Below, in pieces: positions 13,061 through 28,642 of a stretch of DNA of 64,000 nt. Each line of letters opens with the position of its first letter. The stretch's first letter is position 1. The DNA is taken from contig JALUTY010000096.1 in assembly GCA_027021615.1 (NCBI GenBank), positions 1-64,000 on the forward strand, in the 5' to 3' direction. A program made the position numbers and the translations under genes. Below the pieces are notes generated by a model. It ran no database searches and was not told the origin of the DNA. It saw only the letters and a list, made by a program, of their open reading frames with translations. The DNA is from a bacterium (GTDB lineage: Bacteria > Desulfobacterota > Deferrisomatia > Deferrisomatales > Deferrisomataceae).

Positions 13061-14470
13061 TTAGTACGCCCACGCCAGCGTCAGCATGTTGAGCCAGGCG
13101 GTGTCGTTGGCGTTCACCTGGTCCTCGATGCCCTGGCCCGGCACGAAGGCCGAGAAGATGTTGTCGATGGAGAAGTTCTTGTTGAACTTGTACTTGAGCT
13201 GGAGGTCGAAGGTGGTGCCGGCGTAGTCGTCCACTTCCTCGCCGGGGTCCTTCGCGTTGGTCAGGTTGCCGGTCTCGTCGTACCAGATGAAGAACGCCTG
13301 GGCCTTGTAGGAGAGCTTCGGCACGAGCTGCCCCAGATCGCCCTTGGCGCCCACCGCGATCAGCCGCTGGCCCGGGTTGTTGCCGGAGCCGCCGTTGCCG
13401 ATGCCGCCGTAGCCGTTGCCGCCCACGGCCCGCTCCGGCGCGTAGGCATAGAGGGACGCGCCGTAGGGGCTCGCGCCCGAGGCCAGGTGCTCGCCCAGGA
13501 TGTTGCCGTCCATGCCCATGAGGGGGGTGAACCGGCCGATGTCGGTGATGCCGAGCCAGCCCTCGACGTCGTCGTCGCTGGAGTCGTCGTCACCGCGGGT
13601 GTACCGGAACGCCACGTAGGGGTTGAGCGCCTTGCTCACCGGCACCTCGAGCCCTGCGAACGCGGCCCAGGAGCGCACGTCCGGGCCGCCGTCCTCGAAC
13701 TCGCCGTTGGCGGCCACCACCTCGAAGCTGGGCTTCACGGGCCCGATCTGGCCGAGCCCCTCCAGGCCGTAGTAGGTCACGTTCACGTTCTTGGCCTCGT
13801 TGTCGCTGTACGCGACGAGGGGGCTCACCGTGAACTTGCCCATGCCCGTGTCGAGCGTGGCGTTCACCTTGGCCGTGTACACCCTCCAGTCGCCGGTCTG
13901 CCAGTCGTCCCGGGTTCCGATCAGGTCCGAGTTCTGGATGGGCATGTACAGCAGCTCGTACGAGAGCATATCGCCCACCTTGCCCCGGAACCCCACGAAC
14001 GGGTGGTCGTCGCCGTACAGGAGACCCCCGGTCTTCAGGTCCAGGAACCGGATGTCCCAGCCGGTCTCCAGCTGCAGCTCGGGGGCGAAGGTGTAGAGGA
14101 ACTCGGCCCGCTCGATCCCGAACTCGCCGCCCGCGTTGGGCTGGTTGTTCTTCGTTGCGCCCACATAGAACGAGCGATCGCCGTTGTCCTTGTTCATGAT
14201 CACGTCGGACTCGGCGATCATCTTCACCGACCAGTTGTCGCCCTTGGCCTTCCAGCCGAGCCGCAGCTCGGCGCGGATGTGCTCGCCCGAGGCCCACCCG
14301 CCCTCGTTCAGGGCCGGGGCGTCGCCCTTGGAGTCGTCGAAGTCGAAGTTGTTGTAAAAGGTGGGCTTGATCTTGGCGGTCCCGAAGAACTGGACGGCCG
14401 CTTGGGCCGGTAGGGCCAGGCCCACCGCGGCGATCGTGGCGAGGGCGATCTGGGAAACGGTTCTTCTCAT
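13061..14470 (-). CDS. porin-like outer-membrane beta-barrel protein
   Basis: This 469-residue protein begins MRRTVSQIALATIAAVGLAL with cleavage near PAQA/AVQFFG. Many amphipathic strands follow (LRLGWKAKGDNWSVKMIAESDV, FLYTFAPELQLETGWDIRF, LSYELLYMPIQ, PYVAFRYTRGDDD) and the chain ends WLNMLTLAWAY with a terminal aromatic, typical of porins. Asp-rich loops (DDDSSDDDVEG) and a Gly-rich loop are present. AAGGAGGAGTCCTC precedes the ATG. It is probably strongly expressed from the sigma-70 promoter at 14601-14629. The substrate is unknown; an alginate-export-like or general porin fold is likely. Confidence 0.7.
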   Translation of the reverse strand: MRRTVSQIALATIAAVGLALPAQAAVQFFGTAKIKPTFYNNFDFDDSKGDAPALNEGGWASGEHIRAELRLGWKAKGDNWSVKMIAESDVIMNKDNGDRSFYVGATKNNQPNAGGEFGIERAEFLYTFAPELQLETGWDIRFLDLKTGGLLYGDDHPFVGFRGKVGDMLSYELLYMPIQNSDLIGTRDDWQTGDWRVYTAKVNATLDTGMGKFTVSPLVAYSDNEAKNVNVTYYGLEGLGQIGPVKPSFEVVAANGEFEDGGPDVRSWAAFAGLEVPVSKALNPYVAFRYTRGDDDSSDDDVEGWLGITDIGRFTPLMGMDGNILGEHLASGASPYGASLYAYAPERAVGGNGYGGIGNGGSGNNPGQRLIAVGAKGDLGQLVPKLSYKAQAFFIWYDETGNLTNAKDPGEEVDDYAGTTFDLQLKYKFNKNFSIDNIFSAFVPGQGIEDQVNANDTAWLNMLTLAWAY

Positions 14471-14540
14471 GAGGACTCCTCCTTTTTCTGTGAGACTTCC
14501 ATGGTGACTTTCGGATGTGCGTGATGCTCGGGTCTGCCGT

Positions 14541-14553
14541 ATCACCTCCTTTC
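14541..14553 (-). promoter_or_regulatory. extended Shine-Dalgarno-like sequence in the porin leader
   Basis: The minus strand reads GAAAGGAGGTGAT, a 13-base match to the complement of the usual 16S rRNA 3' end, 70 bases upstream of the porin ATG, which has its own SD. No start codon follows it at a useful distance. It could be a ribosome standby site, a decoy, or part of a hairpin with ACCTCC further upstream in the leader. Confidence 0.4.
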
Positions 14554-14600
14554 GTCTATGGGATGGGCATCTGCGGGCATACCGCGGAGGTATCGCGCCA

Positions 14601-14629: not shown

Positions 14630-14790
14630 CAAAAAAATAACGCTGTTTGAAATTGTATATTATTCGACAGCTCTGCGGAATATTCATCAGGAGCCTCCCT
14701 TCCAACCCGGCGGCCGGGTCCCGGGCCCCGGGTGAAAGATCTTACCTAAGTCTCGGCCCTTACGGCTGTCGGCCATCAAGCATCTGGTGC

Positions 14791-14806
14791 TGGCACGGTT
14801 GGTGCA
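14791..14806 (+). promoter_or_regulatory. sigma-54 promoter candidate of the putative small RNA
   Basis: TGGCACGGTTGGTGCA matches TGGCACG-N4-TTGCA with one mismatch and exact GG-N10-GC spacing. Predicted start is near 14818. The only downstream element is a very strong terminator 45-80 bases away. Confidence 0.5.
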
Positions 14807-14817
14807 TGAACGCCGAG

Positions 14818-14898
14818 CACATGGGAGTCGCCCCAACCCGATTCCCATTCCTCCTGTAGAGGGGGGAAGGGTCTGGTCCACCCTTCCCCCCTTTTCTT
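14818..14898 (+). ncRNA. putative sigma-54-dependent small regulatory RNA (~80 nt)
   Basis: The stretch between the promoter candidate and the terminator can fold as a 5' hairpin (ATGGGA at 14821-14826 with TCCCAT at 14843-14848) with a C-rich loop (CCCCAACCC), then an unpaired TTCCTCCT (14848-14855), then the terminator stem. A C-rich loop plus exposed anti-SD CCUCCU is typical of small RNAs that occlude ribosome binding sites. Seven bases (TCCTCCT) can pair with AGGAGGA at the porin start. No credible protein is encoded. This is a prediction from promoter, fold and terminator only. Confidence 0.45.
14861..14898 (+). terminator. strong intrinsic terminator
   Basis: GGGGGGAAGGGT (14861-14872) and ACCCTTCCCCCC (14880-14891) form a perfect 12-bp stem with a 7-base loop, followed by TTTTCTT. 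No annotated gene ends here, which is the main reason to propose the small RNA. Confidence 0.85.
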
Positions 14899-14984
14899 CG
14901 GTTGTCAAGCAACCCCCCGTTCTCCCGCCCGTGGTTCCCGGCGTGAAACGCGTGCCCTTGGGGGCAATTATTACCCCGGTGGCT

Positions 14985-15300
14985 ATAGAGGCGCGCAGGT
15001 GGCCGCAGGGGCGCGGGGCTCGCTTCCGGCCGTGCGTGAGTGCGGCATCCGGCTTACGCGGCCTCCGGCACTCAGCCCTATAAGCTGAAACGCGGCTGAA
15101 GTGCGGGCATTTTCGGAGTCCCCGAGGCCGGAAGAGCACCAAGCGTAGGCCGAGTGCCGGAGGCAGCGACTGTCGGAGCCACGCCCGGCGCTCCAGCAGG
15201 CCCCGCGCCCCAGAGCGCGTCCATTTAGCCGCCGGAGTAATGGATGCTCCTCCGTGTCCGCCAAGCTACCTCGCCGCCCAGCGGGCCGAAGGCCCGAAAG
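14985..15300. repeat. dispersed intergenic element, inverted relative to the copy at 63190-63265
   Basis: Bases 15000-15060 are nearly the reverse complement of 63195-63265 (shared GGCCGTGCGTGAGTGCGGCA and CCGGCTTACG). Bases 15270-15300 carry the octamer/hairpin signature GCCGCCCA-GCGGGCCGAAGGCCC. The 14899-15384 stretch has no supported gene. Confidence 0.65.
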
Positions 15301-15752: not shown

Positions 15753-15768
15753 AGCATAGGGCGTGCCA
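15753..15768 (-). promoter_or_regulatory. sigma-54 promoter of the tiny CxC operon
   Basis: The minus strand reads TGGCACGCCCTATGCT: the -24 element TGGCACG is perfect and the -12 element ATGCT has one mismatch, with correct spacing. Start is near 15742. An inverted repeat TATGC-N9-GCATA (15791-15809) lies 24 bases above it as a possible activator site. Confidence 0.6.
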
Positions 15769-15839: not shown

Positions 15840-15868
15840 TTGACAAGGGTTCGGTTTAGATGAATATT
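15840..15868 (+). promoter_or_regulatory. sigma-70 promoter candidate for the sensor kinase operon
   Basis: TTGACA (15840-15845), a 17-base spacer and AATATT (15863-15868, four of six matches) face the kinase gene at 16021. The 15780-15870 stretch is AT-rich compared with the window. Confidence 0.45.
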
Positions 15869-16020
15869 CTGCGGGTTGAAGAAAACTCGACAGGCCAGGG
15901 GGGCGGTGGTAGCCTGCCGGGCCATGGAGTTCGATAGAACGGCGGAAAATCGAGGGGTTCGGTACAACGGTACGTCCCTTGCTTTGGACTCCGGCCGACC
16001 GTTGCCGGAGGAATCACGCC

Positions 16021-17173
16021 ATGCTGGTCAACGACCCGAGGAAGGACTTCTGGATCAAGGTGAGCGCGGTGGCCGTGCTCGTGTTCGGCGTGTCGCTCCT
16101 GCACTACGGCACGACCACGGCCCGCCCCCTGCTCCACGACGTGTACCGTCGTCTCTACTACATCCCCGTGGGGCTGGCCGCCGTGTGGTTCGGTCTGCGC
16201 GGGGGGCTCGCCGTATCCGGGGTGGTGGCAGCGATCTACGTGCCGCACATCATTATTTACTGGAACGATATGGGCCGGGAGCTGTGGAACCGGGTCATGG
16301 AGGTGGGGTTGTACTTTGTGTTCTCGGGGCTGGTGGGCTTCTTCACCGACCGTGACCGGGCCTACCGGCGCCGGCTCCAGATGGCCAACGAGCGCCTGGA
16401 GAGGTCGTACGATGAGCTGCGCCGTCAGGCGGACACCCTGTTCCAGGTGGAGGAGCAGCTCCGGCGGGCCGACAGGCTTTCGGCCATCGGTCAGCTCGCC
16501 GCCGCGGTGACCCACGAGATCCGCAACCCGCTGGGCGCGATCAAGGGGACGGCCGAGATCCTCCGCGACGAGTTCCCACCGGGCCACCCCAAGGCGGAGT
16601 TCCTGGAGATCCTGCTCAAGGAGACCGATCGACTCAATCAGGTGGTGGAGGAGTTCCTGGGGTACGCCCGACCTGGCAGCACCGACGAGGGGGAGGCGGT
16701 GGACCTGGCGCAGATCGCTCGGCAGGTGGTGGGGTTCCTGTCCACCCCGGCCCGAAAGGCCGGGGTGACGGTGGCGCTGGAGGGCGACGAGACCGTGCGG
16801 GTGGGTGGGCGACCGGCACAGCTCAAGCAGGTGCTCCTCAACCTGGTGTTGAACGCGGTCCAGGCCACGCCCCCCGGCGGGGGCGTGACCGTCCGGGTGG
16901 GCGGGTGTGACGGCCGGGTCCTGGGGGCCGAGTACCGGGAGGTGGCCGGGCGGGTGGCCCGGCTGTGTGTGGAGGACGAAGGGCCCGGGTTGCCCCGTGG
17001 AGAGGAGCAGCGGGTGTTCGAGCCGTTCTTCACGACCAAAGACGAGGGTACGGGGTTGGGCCTTGCGATCAGCCGTAAGATCGCGGAGGCCCACGGAGGG
17101 ACGTTGGTGGCGGAGAACCGCCCCGAGGGGGGGTCACGGTTCGTGCTGACCCTTCCGGCGCTGGAGGAGGCGG

Positions 17174-17181
<8 letters not shown>
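16021..17181 (+). CDS. membrane sensor histidine kinase (NtrB/ZraS type)
   Basis: This 386-residue kinase has about four transmembrane helices in residues 10-115 with only short loops, so it probably senses through the membrane or a small periplasmic surface. A coiled linker (RRRLQMANERLERSYDELRRQ) leads to the HisKA box AVTHEIRNPLGAIKGTAEIL (phospho-His about residue 163), the N box NLVLNAVQATPPGG, the G1 box EDEGPGLP, FEPFFTTKDEGTGLGLAIS and the G2 region. GGAGG precedes the ATG at 16021. The stop overlaps the start of the activator gene by 8 bp. The signal is unknown; metal stress is inferred from the neighbours. Confidence 0.9.
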
Positions 17182-18544
<1,363 letters not shown>

Positions 18545-20270: not shown

Positions 20271-20286
20271 TGGCACATGGGTTGCT
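20271..20286 (+). promoter_or_regulatory. sigma-54 promoter of the cus-like efflux operon
   Basis: TGGCACATGGGTTGCT is a perfect match to TGGCAC-N5-TTGCW. Transcription would start near 20297, about 100 bases before the first TolC gene. It is the best of the sigma-54 sites in the window by sequence. Confidence 0.75.
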
Positions 20287-20395: not shown

Positions 20396-21727
20396 ATGAA
20401 ACGAACCGTTGGATGGATGATGGGTGCGCTGGCGGTCGCCGTTGCGGTGACGCCGATCCGGGCCGCCGAGGCCCCGACCGCTTTGGAGGCCCGGCTCCGG
20501 AGCGGCCCCTCGGTGGCGGATCTGGTGACCTACGCGTACCAAACCAACCCCAAGATCGAGGCGGCCCGGCAGAAGTGGAAGGCCGTGGTGGAGCGCTACC
20601 GGGTCTCCACGGCGTACCCCGACCCCCAGGTCATGGTGACCTACTTCCCCGAGCCGATCGAGACCAGGCTGGGGCCCCAGGACTGGAACGCGGTGCTGAG
20701 CCAGATGATTCCGTTCCCCGGCAAGCTCTCGAAGGCCGGGGAGGTGGTGGAGGCGGACGCGCGCATCGCCCGGCTGAAGCTCGACAAAACGGTCCGGGAC
20801 GTGATCGTGGCGCTTCGCGAGTCGGTCCACGAGCTGCTCTACATCCGCCGCGCCAGGCAGGTGGTGGCCGCGAACCGGAAGCTCCTGGACCACATGCGCA
20901 AGGTGGCCGAGACCTCCCACGCCGGCGACCGGGCCACGTTCGTGGACGTGGCCAAGGCCCAGTCCCAGCGGGCCCAGCTGGAGTACGACGCCCTCCTGCT
21001 CGAGGAGCTCGAGGCGACCGAGCGCGCCCGGTTGAACGCGTTGCTCAACCGCGCTCCGGACGCCGAGCTGGGGCCTCTGCCGGAGGTCCCGTTCCAACCC
21101 CTGGCCTACAGCCTCGATGAGATCCACGAGCTGGCGGCCAAGCGGCAGGAGGAGATCCGGATCGCCGAGGCCCGGGTGGCGAAGGCGAGGGCCAAGCTGG
21201 ACCTGGCTCGGTACGAGAACCGCCCGGACTTCAAGGTGGGGCTGTTCTACGCGGGCGTCGGAGAGCCGGACGTGGCCAACGAGCCCGATGATGCTGGCCG
21301 CGACGCCCTGGGCGTGCAGTTCGGCATGACGATCCCCCTGTGGCTCGGGAAGAACGCGGGCCGAACCTCGGCCGCTCGCGCCGAGATCAAGCGGGCACGG
21401 GCCCTGAAGGTTGCGCGGATCAACGACACCGACGCGGCCATCCGGAGCGTCTACTTCCGCCTCAAGAATGCGGAGCGGCTGGTCACGCTGTACCGGGACG
21501 AGCTCCTGCCCCAGGCCGCCCAGTCCCTGGACGTGGCCGAGACGTGGTTCCAGGAGGGGGAGGGAAGCTTCAGCGACTTCGTGGAGACCCAGTCGGTGTA
21601 CTACAACTTCCAGCTCTCCCTGGCCCGGGCCGAGGCTGACTACGGAAAGTTCCTGGCCCGGCTGGAGCGGCTGACGGCCACGAGCCTGACCCGGCGGGAA
21701 GGAAGCGCCGAGGAGGGGAAGCGATGA
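20396..21727 (+). CDS. TolC-family outer-membrane efflux protein, first of two
   Basis: This 443-residue protein has a signal peptide (MKRTVGWMMGALAVAVAVTP) and two TolC-type halves, each with a long helical hairpin: LVTYAYQTNPKIEAARQKWK...YPDPQVMVTYF and LAAKRQEEIRIAEARVAKAR...GVQFGMTIPLW. It corresponds to CusC/CzcC, the outer-membrane channel of the tripartite pump, although it lacks an obvious lipobox Cys. GGAGAGAGTGGG precedes the ATG. It opens a five- or six-gene operon and overlaps the next gene by ATGA. Confidence 0.88.
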   Translation: MKRTVGWMMGALAVAVAVTPIRAAEAPTALEARLRSGPSVADLVTYAYQTNPKIEAARQKWKAVVERYRVSTAYPDPQVMVTYFPEPIETRLGPQDWNAVLSQMIPFPGKLSKAGEVVEADARIARLKLDKTVRDVIVALRESVHELLYIRRARQVVAANRKLLDHMRKVAETSHAGDRATFVDVAKAQSQRAQLEYDALLLEELEATERARLNALLNRAPDAELGPLPEVPFQPLAYSLDEIHELAAKRQEEIRIAEARVAKARAKLDLARYENRPDFKVGLFYAGVGEPDVANEPDDAGRDALGVQFGMTIPLWLGKNAGRTSAARAEIKRARALKVARINDTDAAIRSVYFRLKNAERLVTLYRDELLPQAAQSLDVAETWFQEGEGSFSDFVETQSVYYNFQLSLARAEADYGKFLARLERLTATSLTRREGSAEEGKR

Positions 21728-23313
21728 GACGGTTACGGAGTTGGATCCGCCGCACGCCAGGGCTTTGGGCCCTGGGTGCCGTCGTGCTCGCGGGGGCGCC
21801 GGCCTGGGCCGGGTACGGGGAGCTGAGCGATCAATGGGAGTCCTACCAGCCCGAAGGGCTGTACCAAACCCAGACCGCTGCCGCGCCGGCCGCTGCTCCG
21901 GCAAAAGCGGAATCCGCCGGCAGCGACGAGTTCGAGCGCCAGAAGGAGGTCCTGGCGCAGGCCCGGAAGCGGTGGACGGAAGCGCTGGCTCAACCAGCAC
22001 CGTCGGAAGGGTTCTACTCGCCGCCGGCCGAAGCACTCGCACGGCTTCGGGACGCGGCTGACGACGCCGAGGTCGCCGCCCGGGCGCTCGCCGTCGACGG
22101 GATCACCTTGGAGGATCTGGAGGTGCTCACCTGGCTGCGCAACCCCGGGATCCGTGCCGCCCAGGACCGGTTGCGCGGAGTGCTGGAGCGCTACACCCAG
22201 GCTTGGAATCTCGACGAGATCCTGCGCCAGTACACGGCCTTCACCGAGGGTCTGATGAACGGGGTGGGGCCCATGAAGGGGCGGGAGCCTGTGCAGATGC
22301 GGTTCCCCTTCCCTGGTCTGCTGGCCTTGAAGGGCGAGATCGTCACCCAGGAGGTGAGGGCGGCTGCCGAAGGGCTCGAGATCGCCCGGCGTACCGCGAT
22401 CACCAACATCCGCAAGGCATACTGGAACCTGGAGTTCGTGACCGAGGCCGAGCGGATCACGGCGGAGATGCTCGACCTGCTCGAACGGCTCGAGTCCGTG
22501 GCCAAGGCCCGGTACGAGTCGGGAAAGACCAACTTCCAGGACGTGATCCAGGTACGGATCCGGCGGGAGACCGTGACCGAGGACGTGCAGACCCTGTTCG
22601 AGCAGCGCCACACCGTGGAGTCGAAGCTCCGCGAGATCCTGGACCTGCCCCCGGACGCGGCAGTGGGACGGCCGACCAAGGTCGAGCCCGTACGCAACGT
22701 GCCCCAGCTTGGCCCCCTGTACGAGCTGGCCCTGGACCGGCGCCAGGAGCTGCGAAGGCTCCGGGCGCAGGTGGGCAAGATGGAGCGGATGATCGAGCTG
22801 GCCGAGACGCGGATCTACCCTGACTACACCCTGAACCTCTCCCTGTACCAGGACGAGGCGGTGACCCAGGTGGGCACGGCCCGCATGAAGGAGCCGTTCG
22901 CCACGGTGACCACGGCTTCGGTGGGGGCGGGGCTGCCCAAGATGCCGTGGTACGGCCGCGGGGACGCTTATGTCCGCGAGACCCGCCAGAAGCTCGATGC
23001 CCTGCGGCAGCGCCTCCGCAAGGAAGAGGCCGCCGCCCGCTTCGGAGTCCACGACGCCTGGTTCCGGCTGGACCGCGCCGCCCGGGAAGAGGCTCTGTAC
23101 GCCGGCAAGGTGGTGGACCTGTCCCGAGCGGCCCTCGACGTGGCCACCCGGGGGTACGAGGCCGGCGAGGTGATGTTTGCCGACGTGATCGGCTCGTACA
23201 TGGGGTGGCTCGGAGCGAATCTGACCGAGGCTCGAAAGCGCGCCGATCTGGGGGTGGCCTGGGCCGAGCTGGCCGAGGCGATCGGGGTGGACCAACGGGG
23301 TACGAACCGGTAG
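21724..23313 (+). CDS. TolC-family outer-membrane efflux protein, second of two
   Basis: This 529-residue protein has a signal peptide (about residues 1-29, ending PAWA/GYGEL) and an extra ~80-residue N-terminal segment rich in Gln and Ala before the TolC-like core (LRNPGIRAAQDRLRGVLERY, MRFPFPGLLALKGEIVTQEV). The second half carries TLNLSLYQDEAVTQVGTARM and LPKMPWYGRGDAYVRETRQ. It is translationally coupled to the first TolC gene. Two adjacent outer-membrane components for one pump are uncommon; the pair might form mixed channels or serve different partners. Confidence 0.85.
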   Translation: MRRLRSWIRRTPGLWALGAVVLAGAPAWAGYGELSDQWESYQPEGLYQTQTAAAPAAAPAKAESAGSDEFERQKEVLAQARKRWTEALAQPAPSEGFYSPPAEALARLRDAADDAEVAARALAVDGITLEDLEVLTWLRNPGIRAAQDRLRGVLERYTQAWNLDEILRQYTAFTEGLMNGVGPMKGREPVQMRFPFPGLLALKGEIVTQEVRAAAEGLEIARRTAITNIRKAYWNLEFVTEAERITAEMLDLLERLESVAKARYESGKTNFQDVIQVRIRRETVTEDVQTLFEQRHTVESKLREILDLPPDAAVGRPTKVEPVRNVPQLGPLYELALDRRQELRRLRAQVGKMERMIELAETRIYPDYTLNLSLYQDEAVTQVGTARMKEPFATVTTASVGAGLPKMPWYGRGDAYVRETRQKLDALRQRLRKEEAAARFGVHDAWFRLDRAAREEALYAGKVVDLSRAALDVATRGYEAGEVMFADVIGSYMGWLGANLTEARKRADLGVAWAELAEAIGVDQRGTNR

Positions 23314-23376
23314 CCAGCTCCTCCTTCCGACGGCTGACGACCGACGATCAACGACCACGGCTTAGGAGTTCTTTAC

Positions 23377-24912
23377 ATGGCAACGAACACCGAGAACAAG
23401 AAACCCCGATCCACCATGCGGGTGGCCCTCGCAACCGCTGTGGTGACCCTGGGCATAGCCGGGGGGACTGCCTACTTCCTCGGTTGGCTCTCGCCTCCGG
23501 GAGCCGGCGTGGCCACGGCGCCCCAGCCGGTGGGTGAGGCTGGAGGGCAGAAGGGCGAGAAGACCCTGTACACCTGCGGCATGCACCCCTGGATCATCTC
23601 GGAGGAGCCGGGGACCTGCCCAATCTGTGGCATGGAGCTGGTGCCCAAGCGCGACGAGGCCTCCGAGGCCAAGGCCACAGCCTCCGGGAAGAAGGAGCGC
23701 AAGATCCTGTACTGGCGGGCACCCATGAACCCCACGGAGATCTACGACCGCCCCGGCAAGAGCAAGATGGGCATGGACCTGGTGCCGGTGTACGAGGACG
23801 AGGTGGTCGGGGGGGTGGAGGTCCGGATCGACCCGGTGATCCAGCAGAACATGGGTATCCGGACGGCGCCGGTGGAGAAGGGGCCGCTGGTCCGCACCAT
23901 TCGCACCTACGGCCACGTGACCTACGACGAGACCCGCACCGCCACGGTGAGCCCCAAGTTCGGGGGCTGGATCGAGAAGCTCTACGTGGACTTCACCGGC
24001 CAGTTGGTGAAGAAGGGGGACCCGCTTTTCGAGATCTACTCCCCGGACCTGGTCTCGGCCCAGGAGGAGTACCTCACCGCCTACCGGAGCCTGAGCGAGA
24101 CCGAGGGCGGATCGGATCTCCTGGCGTCGGCCCGCCGCCGGCTGGAGTACATGGACATCCCCCCCGACCAGATCCGGGCCATCGAGAAGTTCGGCAAGGT
24201 ACGCCGGACCCTCTTGATCCGGTCGCCGTTCACCGGCGTGGTCACCCACAAGAAGGCGGTGGAGGGGGTGTTCGTGAAGGCCGGTCAGCCCGTGTACCAG
24301 ATCGCTGACCTGTCAAAGGTCTGGGTGGAGGCCCACATCTACGAGTACGAGCTGCCCTGGGTGAAGGTCGGGCAGGAGGCCCGGATGACCCTGCCCTACC
24401 AGCCGGGCAAGGTGTACGTGGGCAAGGTGACCTACGTGTACCCCTACCTCCAGCGGCAGACCCGGGATGTGGTGATCCGGCTGGAGTTCGAGAACCCCGG
24501 CCTGGAGCTCAAGCCCGACATGTACGCCGACGTGGAGCTGCGCACCACCCTGCCCGGCCAGGGCCTGCTGATTCCCTCCGAGGCGGTGCTCCGGTCCGGG
24601 GAGCGCAACGTGGTGTTCGTGACCCGGGGCGACGGCAAGTTCACGCCCCGGGAGGTGACCCTGGGGCTCGAGGTGGACGGCGGGAAGGTGCAGATCCTAT
24701 CGGGGGTGGCCGAGGGGGAGTACGTGGTCACGTCCGGCCAGTTCCTCCTGGACTCCGAGTCCAAGCTCAAGGAGGCCGTGCAGAAGATGCTCGAGGCCAA
24801 GATGGGCAAGCCCAAGGCCGAGAAGCCGGCCAAGTCGTCCGACGATTTCTTCAACGACATGGACGGTGGCGACGCGGGCAAGAAGAAGGACGACTTTTTC
24901 GAGGACATGTGA
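23377..24912 (+). CDS. cusB: CusB-like periplasmic adaptor with heavy-metal-binding modules
   Basis: This 511-residue RND adaptor has an N-terminal membrane anchor (about 12-32). A metal module YTCGMHPW...CPICGMELVPK and a degenerate second copy (RAPMNPTEIYDRPGKSKMGM) follow. The hairpin, lipoyl and beta-barrel domains are visible: GWIEKLYVDFTGQLVKKGDP, SPFTGVVTHKKAVEGVFVKAG, VWVEAHIYEYELPWVKVGQ. It passes Cu/Ag from the periplasm to the pump and docks the TolC partner. The C-terminus has duplicated DDFF(N/E)DM acidic-aromatic motifs. TAGGAGTTCTTTAC precedes the ATG. Confidence 0.9.
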   Translation: MATNTENKKPRSTMRVALATAVVTLGIAGGTAYFLGWLSPPGAGVATAPQPVGEAGGQKGEKTLYTCGMHPWIISEEPGTCPICGMELVPKRDEASEAKATASGKKERKILYWRAPMNPTEIYDRPGKSKMGMDLVPVYEDEVVGGVEVRIDPVIQQNMGIRTAPVEKGPLVRTIRTYGHVTYDETRTATVSPKFGGWIEKLYVDFTGQLVKKGDPLFEIYSPDLVSAQEEYLTAYRSLSETEGGSDLLASARRRLEYMDIPPDQIRAIEKFGKVRRTLLIRSPFTGVVTHKKAVEGVFVKAGQPVYQIADLSKVWVEAHIYEYELPWVKVGQEARMTLPYQPGKVYVGKVTYVYPYLQRQTRDVVIRLEFENPGLELKPDMYADVELRTTLPGQGLLIPSEAVLRSGERNVVFVTRGDGKFTPREVTLGLEVDGGKVQILSGVAEGEYVVTSGQFLLDSESKLKEAVQKMLEAKMGKPKAEKPAKSSDDFFNDMDGGDAGKKKDDFFEDM

Positions 24913-25059
24913 CCACGGGGCAGCCGGCGCGGCCCGGCCTCCACTGTCGGGCCCAGAAGTCGGCGCCCAGGGGTTCGGAAAGTTCGGATTTGAGCCCTGT
25001 ACCCGGCCCGGAGGCCGTTCTGACGGGTGGAGGCAAACGATGGCGCGAGAACACGAGGG

Positions 25060-25112
25060 GCTTCCGCTTTCAGCGGGCTAGCCTCCTAGTCTCCTAGCTT
25101 TCCAGCGGAAGG
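25060..25112. repeat. octamer-array repeat between adaptor and pump genes
   Basis: GCCTCCTA-GTCTCCTA-GCTTTCCA-GCGGAAGGCC lies within the operon, ending just before the pump ATG at 25118. It therefore falls in the mRNA and may overlap the ribosome binding region (GCGGAAGGCCGAC). Confidence 0.6.
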
Positions 25113-25117
25113 CCGAC

Positions 25118-28100
25118 ATGATTGAAAAGATCATCGAATGGTCGATCAACAATAAGTTTATGGTGATCCTGGCCACGGTGTTCGTGATCCTGGGCGGGGT
25201 GCTGGCCATGACCAACACCCCCCTGGATGCGATCCCGGACCTGTCGGACGTGCAGGTGATCATCTACACCGAATACCCGGGCCAGGCCCCCCAGGTGGTG
25301 GAGGACCAGGTCACCTATCCACTCACCACGGCCATGCTGGCCGTGCCTTACGCCAAGGTGGTGCGGGGATACTCGTTCTTCGGGTTCTCCTTCGTCTACA
25401 TCATCTTCGAGGACGGAACCGACCTGTACTGGGCCCGGAGCCGGGTGCTCGAGTACCTGAACTTCGTGGCCGGCCGGCTGCCCCAGGGGGTGACCCCGAG
25501 TCTGGGCCCCGACGGCACCGGGGTGGGGTGGATCTACGAGTACGTCCTCAAGGACACCACCGGCACCCATGACCTCTCGGAGCTGCGGTCCCTCCAGGAC
25601 TGGTACCTACGCTACGAGCTGACGGCCGTTCCCGGCGTGTCGGAGGTCGCCAGCGTGGGTGGGTTCGTGAAGCAGTACCAGGTCGAGGTGGATCCGAACA
25701 AGCTGTTGGCCTACGGGATCCCCATCCAGAAGGTGCGCCGGGCGATTCAGCGATCCAACAACGACGTGGGCGGCAAGCTCATCGAGATGGGGGAGACCGA
25801 GTTCATGGTGCGGGGCAAGGGGTACCTGCGAAGCATCGAGGACATCGAGAACATCTCGATCGGGGTGGACAAGTTCGGCACCCCGGTGCTGTTGAAGCAG
25901 GTGGCCGACGTGCATCTGGGGCCCGAGCTCAGGCGCGGCATCCTGGAGTGGAACGGTGAGGGCGAGGCCGTGGGCGGGGTGGTGGTGATGCGGTTCGGCG
26001 AGAACGCCCTCGAGGTGATCCGGAAGGTCAAGGAGAAGCTCAAGGACCTGGAGAAGGGCCTGCCCGAGGGCGTGGTGATCGAGACGGGCTACGACCGGTC
26101 GGCCCTGATCCTGAGAGCGGTGGACACCCTGAAGGGGAAGCTCATCGAGGAGATGACGGTGGTGGCGATCATCTGCGTCATCTTCCTGCTGCACTTCCGG
26201 TCCGCGTTCGTGGCGATCTTCACCCTGCCCGTGGGCATCCTGATGTCGTTCCTGGTGATGTACGCCCTGGGGATCAACGCCAACATCATGAGCCTGGGGG
26301 GAATCGCCATCGCCATCGGGGTGATGGTGGACGCCTCGGTGGTGCTGGTGGAGAACGCCCACAAGCACCTGGAGCACGATCGGGGCAAGCGCCCCCACAT
26401 CGAGATCATCGTGGAGGCCTCGAAGGAGGTGGGACCGGCGCTGTTCTACAGCCTCTTGATCATCACGGTGAGCTTCCTGCCGGTGTTTGCCCTGCAGGAG
26501 CAGTCGGGCCGGCTCTTCAAGCCTTTGGCCTACACCAAGACGTTTGCCATGGCGGCCTCGTCGATTCTGGCCATTACCATCATCCCGGTGCTCATGACCT
26601 TCTTCGTGCGGGAAGAGACGTTCTCGCCCGAAACGTCGCGCCGACGTCGGTTCTGGACCTGGGCCAGCGCCGTGGCCGGCCCCCCGGCCCTGGTGGTGGC
26701 CGGGGGAGTGGCGGGGCTCGCGCTCCCGGACTGGAGCCTGGTGGCGGCCCTGGGGGTGTCGGCCTTCGCGGCGGTGTGCCTGGTGCCCCAGCGGATGATC
26801 CCCGAGGCGAGGAACCCGATCAGCCGGTTCTTCATCCGCCTGTACCTGCCGTTCATCCGCACGGTGCTCAAGTGGCGCAAGACCACCGTCCTGGTGGCCC
26901 TGGTGGCCGTGGTGGTTACCTGGTACCCCCTGTCGCGGTTGGGCAGCGAGTTCATGCCACCCCTGAACGAGGGGGATCTCCTGTACATGCCCACGACGCT
27001 CCCGGGGATCTCCATCACCAAGGCCAAGGAGATCCTCCAGCAGACCGACAAGATCATCCAGAGCTTTCCCGAGGTGCACCACACCCTGGGCAAGATCGGC
27101 CGCGCCGAGACAGCCACCGACCCGGCGCCCCTGTCGATGATCGAGACCACCATCATGCTCCGGCCCCAGGTGGAGTACGAGGAGATCCCGGTTCAGCGGT
27201 TCTTCTCGGGCTGGCCGGGCTGGCTCAAGGAGCCCCTGACCTGGATCTGGCCCGAGGTGAAGCGGGGCAAGGTGCTCCACGAGTGGCGCAAGAAGAAGGT
27301 AGAGCGGTTCTTCTCGAGCTGGCCCGACTGGATCCGAGCACCCCTGGCCAAGATCTGGCCCGAGGAGCGGTACCTTACCACCGACGAGCTGGTGGAGGAT
27401 CTGGACCGGGCCATCCAGTTCCCGGGGCTCACCAACGCCTGGACCATGCCGATCAAGACCCGGATCGATATGCTCTCCACCGGCATCAAGACCCCGGTGG
27501 GGATCAAGCTGATGGGGCCGGATCTGCAGGTGCTCTCGGATCTGGGTGCCAAGATCGAGGCGGTGGTGCGGGACATCCCGGGCACGCTGTCGGCCTACTC
27601 CGAGCGGGTCACCGGCGGCAACTACGTGGACTTCGAGATCGACCGCAAGGAGATTGCCCGGTACGGCCTCACGGTGCAGGACGTGCAGGACGTGATCATG
27701 ACCGCCATCGGCGGCATGAACGTGACTTACACGGTCGAGGGGCTCGAGCGCTACCCGGTGAACCTGCGCTACAGCCGGGAGCTGCGGGACGACCTGGAGA
27801 AGCTCCGCCGCGTGCTGGTGCCCACGCCCACCGGGGCTCAGGTGCCCCTGGGGCAGCTGACGAAGATGTCGATCATTAAAGGCCCACCGAGCATCAAGAG
27901 CGAGAACGCCCGCCAGACCGCGTGGATCTACGTGGACCTGAAGGGGGTGGACGTGGGGTCTTACGTGGAGCAGGCCAAGAAGGTGGTGGAGCGGGAGGTG
28001 AAGTTCCCGGCGGGGTACTCCATCGTGTGGTCCGGCCAGTACGAGTACATGCAGAAGGCCCGTAAGACCTTGAACGTGATCGTCCCGATCACCCTGGTCG

Positions 28101-28642
28101 TGATCTTCCTGCTGCTGTACCTCCACTTCCACAGCATCGCCGAGGCCACCATCGTGATGGCGAGCCTGCCGTTTGCCCTGGTGGGCGGGGTGTGGCTCCT
28201 GTTCCTTCTGGGCTACAACCTCTCGGTGGCCGTGACCGTGGGGTTCATCGCCCTGGCCGGTCTGGCGGCGGAGACCGGGGTGGTGATGCTGGTGTACCTG
28301 GACGAGACGTTCCACCGACGCCGGACCCACGCCCTGATGAAGACCACCGGGGACCTGCACGCCTCGATCATCGAGGGCGCGGTGGAGAGGGTCCGGCCGA
28401 AGCTCATGACCGTGGCCACCACTCTGATTGGGCTGCTGCCCGTGATGTGGGGCCACGAGACCGGCTCCCAGGTGATGAAGCGGATCGCGGCGCCCATGGT
28501 GGGCGGGCTGATCTCGTCGACGATCCTCACCCTGGTCATCATCCCGGCGGTGTACGATATCTGGAAGCGTTGGGAGCTGAGGGGCGTCCTGGCCCACGGC
28601 CCGGCCACGGACGCGGCGCCCGAGGACGACGAAGAAGGGTAG
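25118..28642 (+). CDS. cusA: CusA/CzcA-family heavy-metal RND efflux pump
   Basis: This 1174-residue inner-membrane proton antiporter exports Cu(I)/Ag(I) or a related metal. It starts MIEKIIEWSINNKFMVILAT and shows family motifs LDAIPDLSDVQVIIYTEYPG, GIAIAIGVMVDASVVLVENA (TM4 charged residues), and GFIALAGLAAETGVVMLVYL near the end. It is longer than the ~1045-residue E. coli CusA. There are extra hydrophobic residues around 500-560, and an inserted duplicated segment at about 690-750 (RFFSGWPGWLKEPLTWIWPE and RFFSSWPDWIRAPLAKIWPE). It sits between the adaptor and the PII-like gene. Metal choice is inferred from the neighbours. Confidence 0.93.
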   Translation: MIEKIIEWSINNKFMVILATVFVILGGVLAMTNTPLDAIPDLSDVQVIIYTEYPGQAPQVVEDQVTYPLTTAMLAVPYAKVVRGYSFFGFSFVYIIFEDGTDLYWARSRVLEYLNFVAGRLPQGVTPSLGPDGTGVGWIYEYVLKDTTGTHDLSELRSLQDWYLRYELTAVPGVSEVASVGGFVKQYQVEVDPNKLLAYGIPIQKVRRAIQRSNNDVGGKLIEMGETEFMVRGKGYLRSIEDIENISIGVDKFGTPVLLKQVADVHLGPELRRGILEWNGEGEAVGGVVVMRFGENALEVIRKVKEKLKDLEKGLPEGVVIETGYDRSALILRAVDTLKGKLIEEMTVVAIICVIFLLHFRSAFVAIFTLPVGILMSFLVMYALGINANIMSLGGIAIAIGVMVDASVVLVENAHKHLEHDRGKRPHIEIIVEASKEVGPALFYSLLIITVSFLPVFALQEQSGRLFKPLAYTKTFAMAASSILAITIIPVLMTFFVREETFSPETSRRRRFWTWASAVAGPPALVVAGGVAGLALPDWSLVAALGVSAFAAVCLVPQRMIPEARNPISRFFIRLYLPFIRTVLKWRKTTVLVALVAVVVTWYPLSRLGSEFMPPLNEGDLLYMPTTLPGISITKAKEILQQTDKIIQSFPEVHHTLGKIGRAETATDPAPLSMIETTIMLRPQVEYEEIPVQRFFSGWPGWLKEPLTWIWPEVKRGKVLHEWRKKKVERFFSSWPDWIRAPLAKIWPEERYLTTDELVEDLDRAIQFPGLTNAWTMPIKTRIDMLSTGIKTPVGIKLMGPDLQVLSDLGAKIEAVVRDIPGTLSAYSERVTGGNYVDFEIDRKEIARYGLTVQDVQDVIMTAIGGMNVTYTVEGLERYPVNLRYSRELRDDLEKLRRVLVPTPTGAQVPLGQLTKMSIIKGPPSIKSENARQTAWIYVDLKGVDVGSYVEQAKKVVEREVKFPAGYSIVWSGQYEYMQKARKTLNVIVPITLVVIFLLLYLHFHSIAEATIVMASLPFALVGGVWLLFLLGYNLSVAVTVGFIALAGLAAETGVVMLVYLDETFHRRRTHALMKTTGDLHASIIEGAVERVRPKLMTVATTLIGLLPVMWGHETGSQVMKRIAAPMVGGLISSTILTLVIIPAVYDIWKRWELRGVLAHGPATDAAPEDDEEG

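Follow-up and report, generated by a model that had tools for sequence, protein, structure and literature searches.

RNA control of outer-membrane permeability is best known from sigma-E in enterobacteria. The Qrr RNAs of Vibrio are transcribed from sigma-54 promoters switched on by an NtrC-type regulator, the small RNAs GlmY and GlmZ act on glmS by a mechanism different from that proposed below, and metal or envelope systems of the ZraSR type combine an NtrC-type regulator with sigma-54 promoters for small exported proteins encoded next door. GlmY and GlmZ have sigma-54 promoters under the two-component regulator GlrR (PMC3844500); the Desulfovibrio vulgaris response regulator DVU0679 targets the adjoining small RNA gene Dv_sRNA2, whose function is given as unknown (PMC3333781); alpha-r14 or cuckoo RNAs, including NfeR1, silence start regions through a CCUCCU-type anti-Shine-Dalgarno seed, with LsrB as activator and NtrC as repressor of NfeR1 (PMC10746234); and ncS25 of Burkholderia cenocepacia is described as constitutively expressed, with no sigma-54-like motif upstream (PMC10117139).

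In the window, i.e. the whole 64,000-nt stretch analysed here (genome G000), positions 14791–14898 were confirmed as a real feature, with a near-consensus sigma-54 promoter preceding a predicted RNA of about 80 nt that comprises two hairpins and a terminator (Table 1). The promoter candidate named in an earlier note on this DNA held up: a promoter corresponding to TGGCACGGTTGGTGCA is kept in all four family genomes examined, matching 11 of the 12 consensus letters in G000, G001 and G002 and nine in G003. The consensus TGGCACN6TGCA by itself is not enriched above chance in G000 (nine sites vs 28 for the reversed pattern); the case for the promoter rests on conservation. With rpoN found in every one of the 12 genomes searched from the order and a conserved -24/-12 promoter at the right distance, the locus is, judged by its sequence, a predicted sigma-54-dependent small RNA gene.

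The transcription start was predicted by applying the -24/-12 rule to TGGCACGGTTGGTGCA, and the terminator stem starts about 43 bases below it and not 55, as had been given. The terminator was correctly called perfect, its inverted repeat having arms of 13 nt (14860–14872 and 14880–14892) where 12 bp had been counted, followed by TTTTCTTC. The predicted fold has an energy of -43.1 kcal/mol (z -5.4), and none of 200 shuffled sequences was equally stable. The single CCUCCU of the RNA is placed in the linker between the two hairpins, and the anti-Shine-Dalgarno stretch UUCCUCCU, previously described as free, is unpaired except for its first base, which is the last U of hairpin 1, the rest being the linker.

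The RNA also contains an ATG...TAG frame of 12 codons reading MGVAPTRFPFLL, which is open in G000 and, by eye, in the alignment of G001 and G002. That the locus represents a leader, an attenuator or a tiny coding RNA is nevertheless extremely unlikely: G003 loses both start and stop and yet keeps the RNA structure, the 4-nt leader is too short for any Shine-Dalgarno sequence, and no same-strand gene lies within 1 kb downstream in G000. The frame was rejected.

Table 1 Features of the small RNA locus and its surroundings (window coordinates).
Feature	Position	Strand	Remarks
Adjacent porin, not the best-supported target	13061..14470	-	pairs at -14.2 kcal/mol; rank 13 among 39 gene starts of the window
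Putative enhancer site GCGGAATATTCATC	14675..14688	+	centre about -135 from RNA start; kept in G001, G002
Sigma-54 promoter TGGCACGGTTGGTGCA	14791..14806	+	11/12 consensus letters
Small RNA gene, ~80 nt	14817..14898	+	predicted start ~14817; 3' end within T run
Hairpin 1, 10 pairs (14821–14830 with 14839–14848)	14821..14848	+	3' arm inside target-pairing segment
Target-pairing segment AUUCCCAUUCCUCCUGUAG	14841..14859	+	reverse complement of distant porin start, exact in G000/G002, with a single G-U in G001
Unpaired linker UCCUCCUGU, proposed seed	14849..14857	+	identical in 4/4 genomes
Terminator hairpin (14858–14872 with 14880–14894), loop CUGGUCC, U-rich tail	14858..14898	+	3 pairs doubly changed
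Peptide B, paralogue of A, 49 aa	15385..15534	-	secreted, Cys-containing
Secreted Cys-containing peptide A, 48 aa	15555..15701	-	conserved in G001, G002
Second sigma-54 promoter TGGCACGCCCTATGCT, ahead of the two peptide genes	15753..15768	-	conserved in G001, G002
Second enhancer-like site GCAGAATATTCATC	15859..15872	-	centre about -124 from peptide promoter start; one mismatch in G002
Membrane histidine kinase	16021..17181	+	HisKA, HATPase_c; 95–96% in G001/G002, 59–64% in four other genomes of the order
NtrC-type sigma-54 response regulator, proposed activator	17174..18544	+	Response_reg, Sigma54_activat, HTH_8

When 59 relatives, G000 itself counted among them, were searched with the DNA sequence, strong matches were obtained in four genomes, namely G000, G001 (E 1.8e-44), G002 (5.4e-32) and G003 (1.0e-17), and only weak ones (E 0.007 to 1) in 38 of the remaining 55. 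The match in G002 (99% identity) covers 14820–14895 only, a span nearly coextensive with the RNA that leaves out the flanks. A covariance model, R1, scored 107.2, 105.8, 105.8 and 102 bits in G000 to G003, respectively, values that are high by construction as the model was built from these four sequences. Full copies of the RNA (102–107 bits) were found in all four family genomes and nowhere else, the next-best scores being 31.2 bits among 12 genomes of the order and 34.5 bits among 395 of the phylum. In the phylum search, 16 of the 395 genomes passed E 0.01, 12 of them weakly. The distant matches inspected at L031, L037–L040 and L042–L052 (n=16) were rejected as homologues, since they read as plain terminators with sigma-54 scores of 2–6 out of 12, and L041 and L053–L055 were excluded as matching the terminator part only. 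One of these rejected loci, L037 in G005, carries GUUCCUCCUGCAG ahead of its terminator but is the 3' end of a gene whose protein we read as TPR-like.

The 25 pairs of the RNA hold in 99 of 100 cells across the four genomes. The earlier note had suggested looking for covariation in relatives, and four pairs indeed change on both sides while remaining paired, compared to none in six slid controls; most of this covariation traces to a single lineage, G003. The note had further tied its reading to conservation of promoter, loop and terminator: promoter and terminator are kept in all four genomes, whereas conservation of the C-rich apical loop, rightly seen in G000, does not extend to G003. Its central proposal, a sigma-54-driven RNA of about 80 nt with an exposed anti-Shine-Dalgarno motif, is supported, promoter, hairpins, linker and terminator all being conserved. 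G003 thus keeps the RNA together with a weaker promoter, and the kinase pair, the peptides, the enhancer motif, hfq and the target porin discussed below were not found in this genome, a 92% complete draft in which gene loss and assembly gaps are indistinguishable. In G003 (L023 1078–3057, minus strand), a same-strand gene for a hybrid histidine kinase follows the RNA in place of the peptides and the kinase pair. Separately, about 260 bases of the window (14960–15230) contain nested inverted repeats (15008–15024 with 15195–15211, and 15048–15077 with 15148–15177); this region seems absent from the same place in G001 and is possibly a small mobile element.

The neighbouring divergent porin had been put forward as the target, its AGGAGGA being able to pair with UCCUCCU. 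The pairing exists, with nine bases including one G-U at the Shine-Dalgarno sequence in G000, and the divergent arrangement of RNA and porin is common to all four family genomes. It is, however, ordinary, as the rank among the gene starts of the window shows, and in G003 it is interrupted and weaker (-10.6 kcal/mol). The adjacent porin was for this reason rejected as a specific target, and we regard its repression by the RNA as very unlikely. In its leader, at 14540–14560 on the minus strand, a second, full Shine-Dalgarno-like sequence, AAAGGAGGTGATACGG, is found some 75 nt ahead of the porin start; G001 and G002 conserve it, G003 does so in part, and no gene is evident behind it.

The in-silico target search that the note had proposed instead led to a distant porin gene. 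A pattern search of the four genomes for ACAGGAGG before ATG, combined with BLAST, located a Shine-Dalgarno and start region, CUACAGGAGGAAUGGGAAU(G), with 19 nt complementary to 14841–14859 in G000 (C22:16961–16979) and G002, and 18 nt plus one G-U in G001. In G000, CTACAGGAGGAATGGGAAT sits right at the start codon of an outer-membrane protein of 447 aa (C22:15622–16962), which has a weak Alginate_exp porin match and does not meaningfully resemble the adjacent porin in sequence. The duplex with the RNA has a predicted energy of -36.1 kcal/mol; across 143 start-like places in the window, the most favourable value is -24.3. Opening hairpin 1, whose 5' arm (AUGGGA) resembles the target since its 3' arm belongs to the pairing segment, costs 14.3, and cofolding remains favourable by about 21 in G000, the letters of the G000 RNA having been used for all three genomes. 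In 600,000 simulated AGGAGG starts (first-order statistics from 24 start regions, AGGAGG forced), the longest complementary run was 17 and seven starts had runs of at least 15. The 1579 start-like places compared were drawn from redundant loci retrieved for other purposes, and a 17-nt match to the pairing segment at a gene start in the unrelated G035 (L017) is due to chance. By its extended complementarity to a porin start, the RNA is a predicted trans-acting, porin-repressing small RNA.

G000, G001 and G002 are close relatives, and over 250 nt their distant-porin leaders hardly differ, so the 19-nt site is not independently conserved and counts as one case. In G003, the target search yielded no gene start bearing an antisense site, and a porin start reading CCACAGGAGGAACGGGAAU in the genus of G003 would constitute a compensatory change between RNA and target. 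Part of the leader survives in homologues of the distant porin from other families (15 nt in G007 and 13 nt in G004), and R1 detects no such RNA in these two genomes. The leader therefore seems older than the RNA, which appears to have come to fit it. Two further observations were made at this gene. The target porin of G002 (L145 5974–7338) is 54% identical to that of G000 with a nearly identical leader and signal peptide, as if the barrel had been exchanged. Furthermore, GGGUUGGG in the distant-porin leader (L143, about 4000, minus strand) is complementary to the apical loop CCCAACCC of the RNA; given the order along the mRNA, this pairing is hard to combine with the 19-nt site in one duplex, and G003 does not conserve the loop.

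An RNA acting broadly on Shine-Dalgarno sequences, in the manner of cuckoo or AbcR RNAs, would lower many envelope mRNAs through CCUCCU, with the distant porin merely the most strongly affected. Matching sequences are indeed present: CUACAGGAGGA ahead of an outer-membrane efflux gene in the window and its counterparts in G001 and G002 (11 bp), and CUACAGGAGGAA ahead of an ABC substrate-binding gene (12 bp). Runs of at least 11 nonetheless arise by chance at 0.22% of AGGAGG starts (1345/600,000), so matches of 11–12 bp are not significant genome-wide, and these secondary targets were rejected as not above chance. As only the distant porin stands out, such broad action appears unlikely.

Between the RNA and the kinase–regulator pair lie two peptide genes; the peptides, which have a GCS motif and DLVR ends in common, had no match in Pfam or NCBIfam. 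In the 4.25-Mb G000 genome, the motif GNNGAATATTCNNC is present at exactly two sites (14675–14688 and 15859–15872), and its reversed pattern at none. Both sites are at enhancer distance from sigma-54 promoters and in like orientation to each, although the motif was derived from these two sites, so that the genome count is not a blind test. Three occurrences were found in G001, two of them at this locus, and one in G002, at the RNA site, the peptide site having one mismatch; a pattern search of the G003 genome gave none. Most likely, the adjacent kinase and NtrC-type regulator switch on the RNA. Alternatively, a genuine sigma-54 small RNA could answer to another activator, with the GAATATTC sites serving the divergent porin and kinase promoters. 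Each site is also upstream of a divergent gene, and G003 keeps the RNA where kinase pair and motif were not found; the orientation and similar distance that the two sites share relative to two sigma-54 promoters, and the lack of any further site genome-wide, make another activator rather improbable.

Sigma-54-like promoters also lie close to orthologous kinase–regulator pairs in G004, G005 and G007, which belong to other families of the order; some of these promoters precede genes for small exported proteins. Upstream of one such gene in G005 (L111:4280 region), the sigma-54 promoter is preceded by a perfect inverted repeat, GACTATT-N13-AATAGTC, with related TATTC-type sequences in L109 and L110; the repeat is a possible related enhancer site. 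In the window, a sigma-54-like site, TGGCACATGGGTTGCT, is located at 20271–20286 (plus strand) upstream of a Cus-like efflux operon (20396–28642), with no GNNGAATATTCNNC site by it. CopA-like and Cus-like genes in the window and metal-type neighbours beside the orthologous pairs (by reading the proteins) suggest metal stress; the Cus genes do not adjoin the kinase pair in G002. Envelope or metal stress is a guess at the inducing signal.

Taken together, we consider it probable that the locus encodes a sigma-54-dependent, trans-acting small RNA that represses the distant porin and is switched by the adjacent kinase/NtrC-type pair. The phosphorylated regulator would bind GNNGAATATTCNNC about 135 bp upstream of the RNA and, simultaneously, the matching site driving the two small secreted peptides, whereupon RNA polymerase with sigma-54 would transcribe the trans-acting RNA of about 80 nt. 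The free linker UCCUCCUGU would seed on the Shine-Dalgarno sequence of the distant porin mRNA, hairpin 1 would open, and 19 bp would form over the Shine-Dalgarno sequence and start codon, excluding the ribosome and thereby blocking porin translation. We infer that Hfq may take part; hfq is present in G000 and G002 and was not found in the G001 and G003 assemblies. A more elaborate arrangement, in which kinase pair, peptides and RNA form a closed sigma-54 switch, with feedback from the exported peptides (as signal or metal ligand) to the kinase and the RNA meanwhile shutting off the main porin, strikes us as quite improbable. If true, this would represent a stand-alone, sigma-54-based equivalent of the sigma-E/MicA-RybB porin response or, alternatively, a peptide analogue of the LuxO-Qrr circuit.

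The preferred reading, a porin-repressing RNA under the adjacent pair, amounts to a near-complete and testable circuit drawn from sequence, from sensor, enhancer site and sigma-54 promoter to small RNA and a 19-nt porin site. It would couple NtrC-type signalling directly to outer-membrane permeability via RNA, and it illustrates that a neighbouring porin need not be the target of a small RNA. Our literature search turned up no small RNA of this type that represses a porin and depends on sigma-54, though this is weak evidence that none exists, and no small-RNA work for the Deferrisoma lineage.

As in the Qrr system, a sigma-54 promoter is combined with a proposed NtrC-type regulator, and the Qrr precedent drawn in the earlier note is fair for promoter type only. 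Unlike Qrr, the RNA is single copy, and the window has no Rfam match at gathering score; a permissive scan of 14700–15000 gave 20 weak matches at E<=10, far below gathering and none to Qrr. The regulator scores 406.7 bits against a LuxO cut-off of 800. We therefore file the RNA, provisionally, among sigma-54-dependent, porin-targeting small RNAs and not with Qrr. The ZraSR systems share the NtrC-type regulator and the adjoining sigma-54 promoter for small secreted peptides, yet kinase and regulator score below the ZraS and ZraR cut-offs. With GlmY and GlmZ (PMC3844500), the RNA has in common the sigma-54 promoter and, as proposed, a two-component regulator, differing in its lack of an Rfam match. 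The DVU0679–Dv_sRNA2 pair likewise places a response regulator beside a small RNA gene. The cuckoo or alpha-r14 RNAs have three hairpins with CCUCCUCCC in each loop, in contrast to two hairpins and one linker CCUCCU here. NcS25 also lies beside one porin gene and targets another, and also uses a single-stranded anti-Shine-Dalgarno seed with pairing extending into a stem that opens, so that the translation start is covered (PMC10117139); the sigma-54 promoter sets the present RNA apart, and no sequence relation to NcS25 is shown. NcS25, NfeR1, GlmY/GlmZ and DVU0679–Dv_sRNA2 thus each share part of the design, and none shares all of it.
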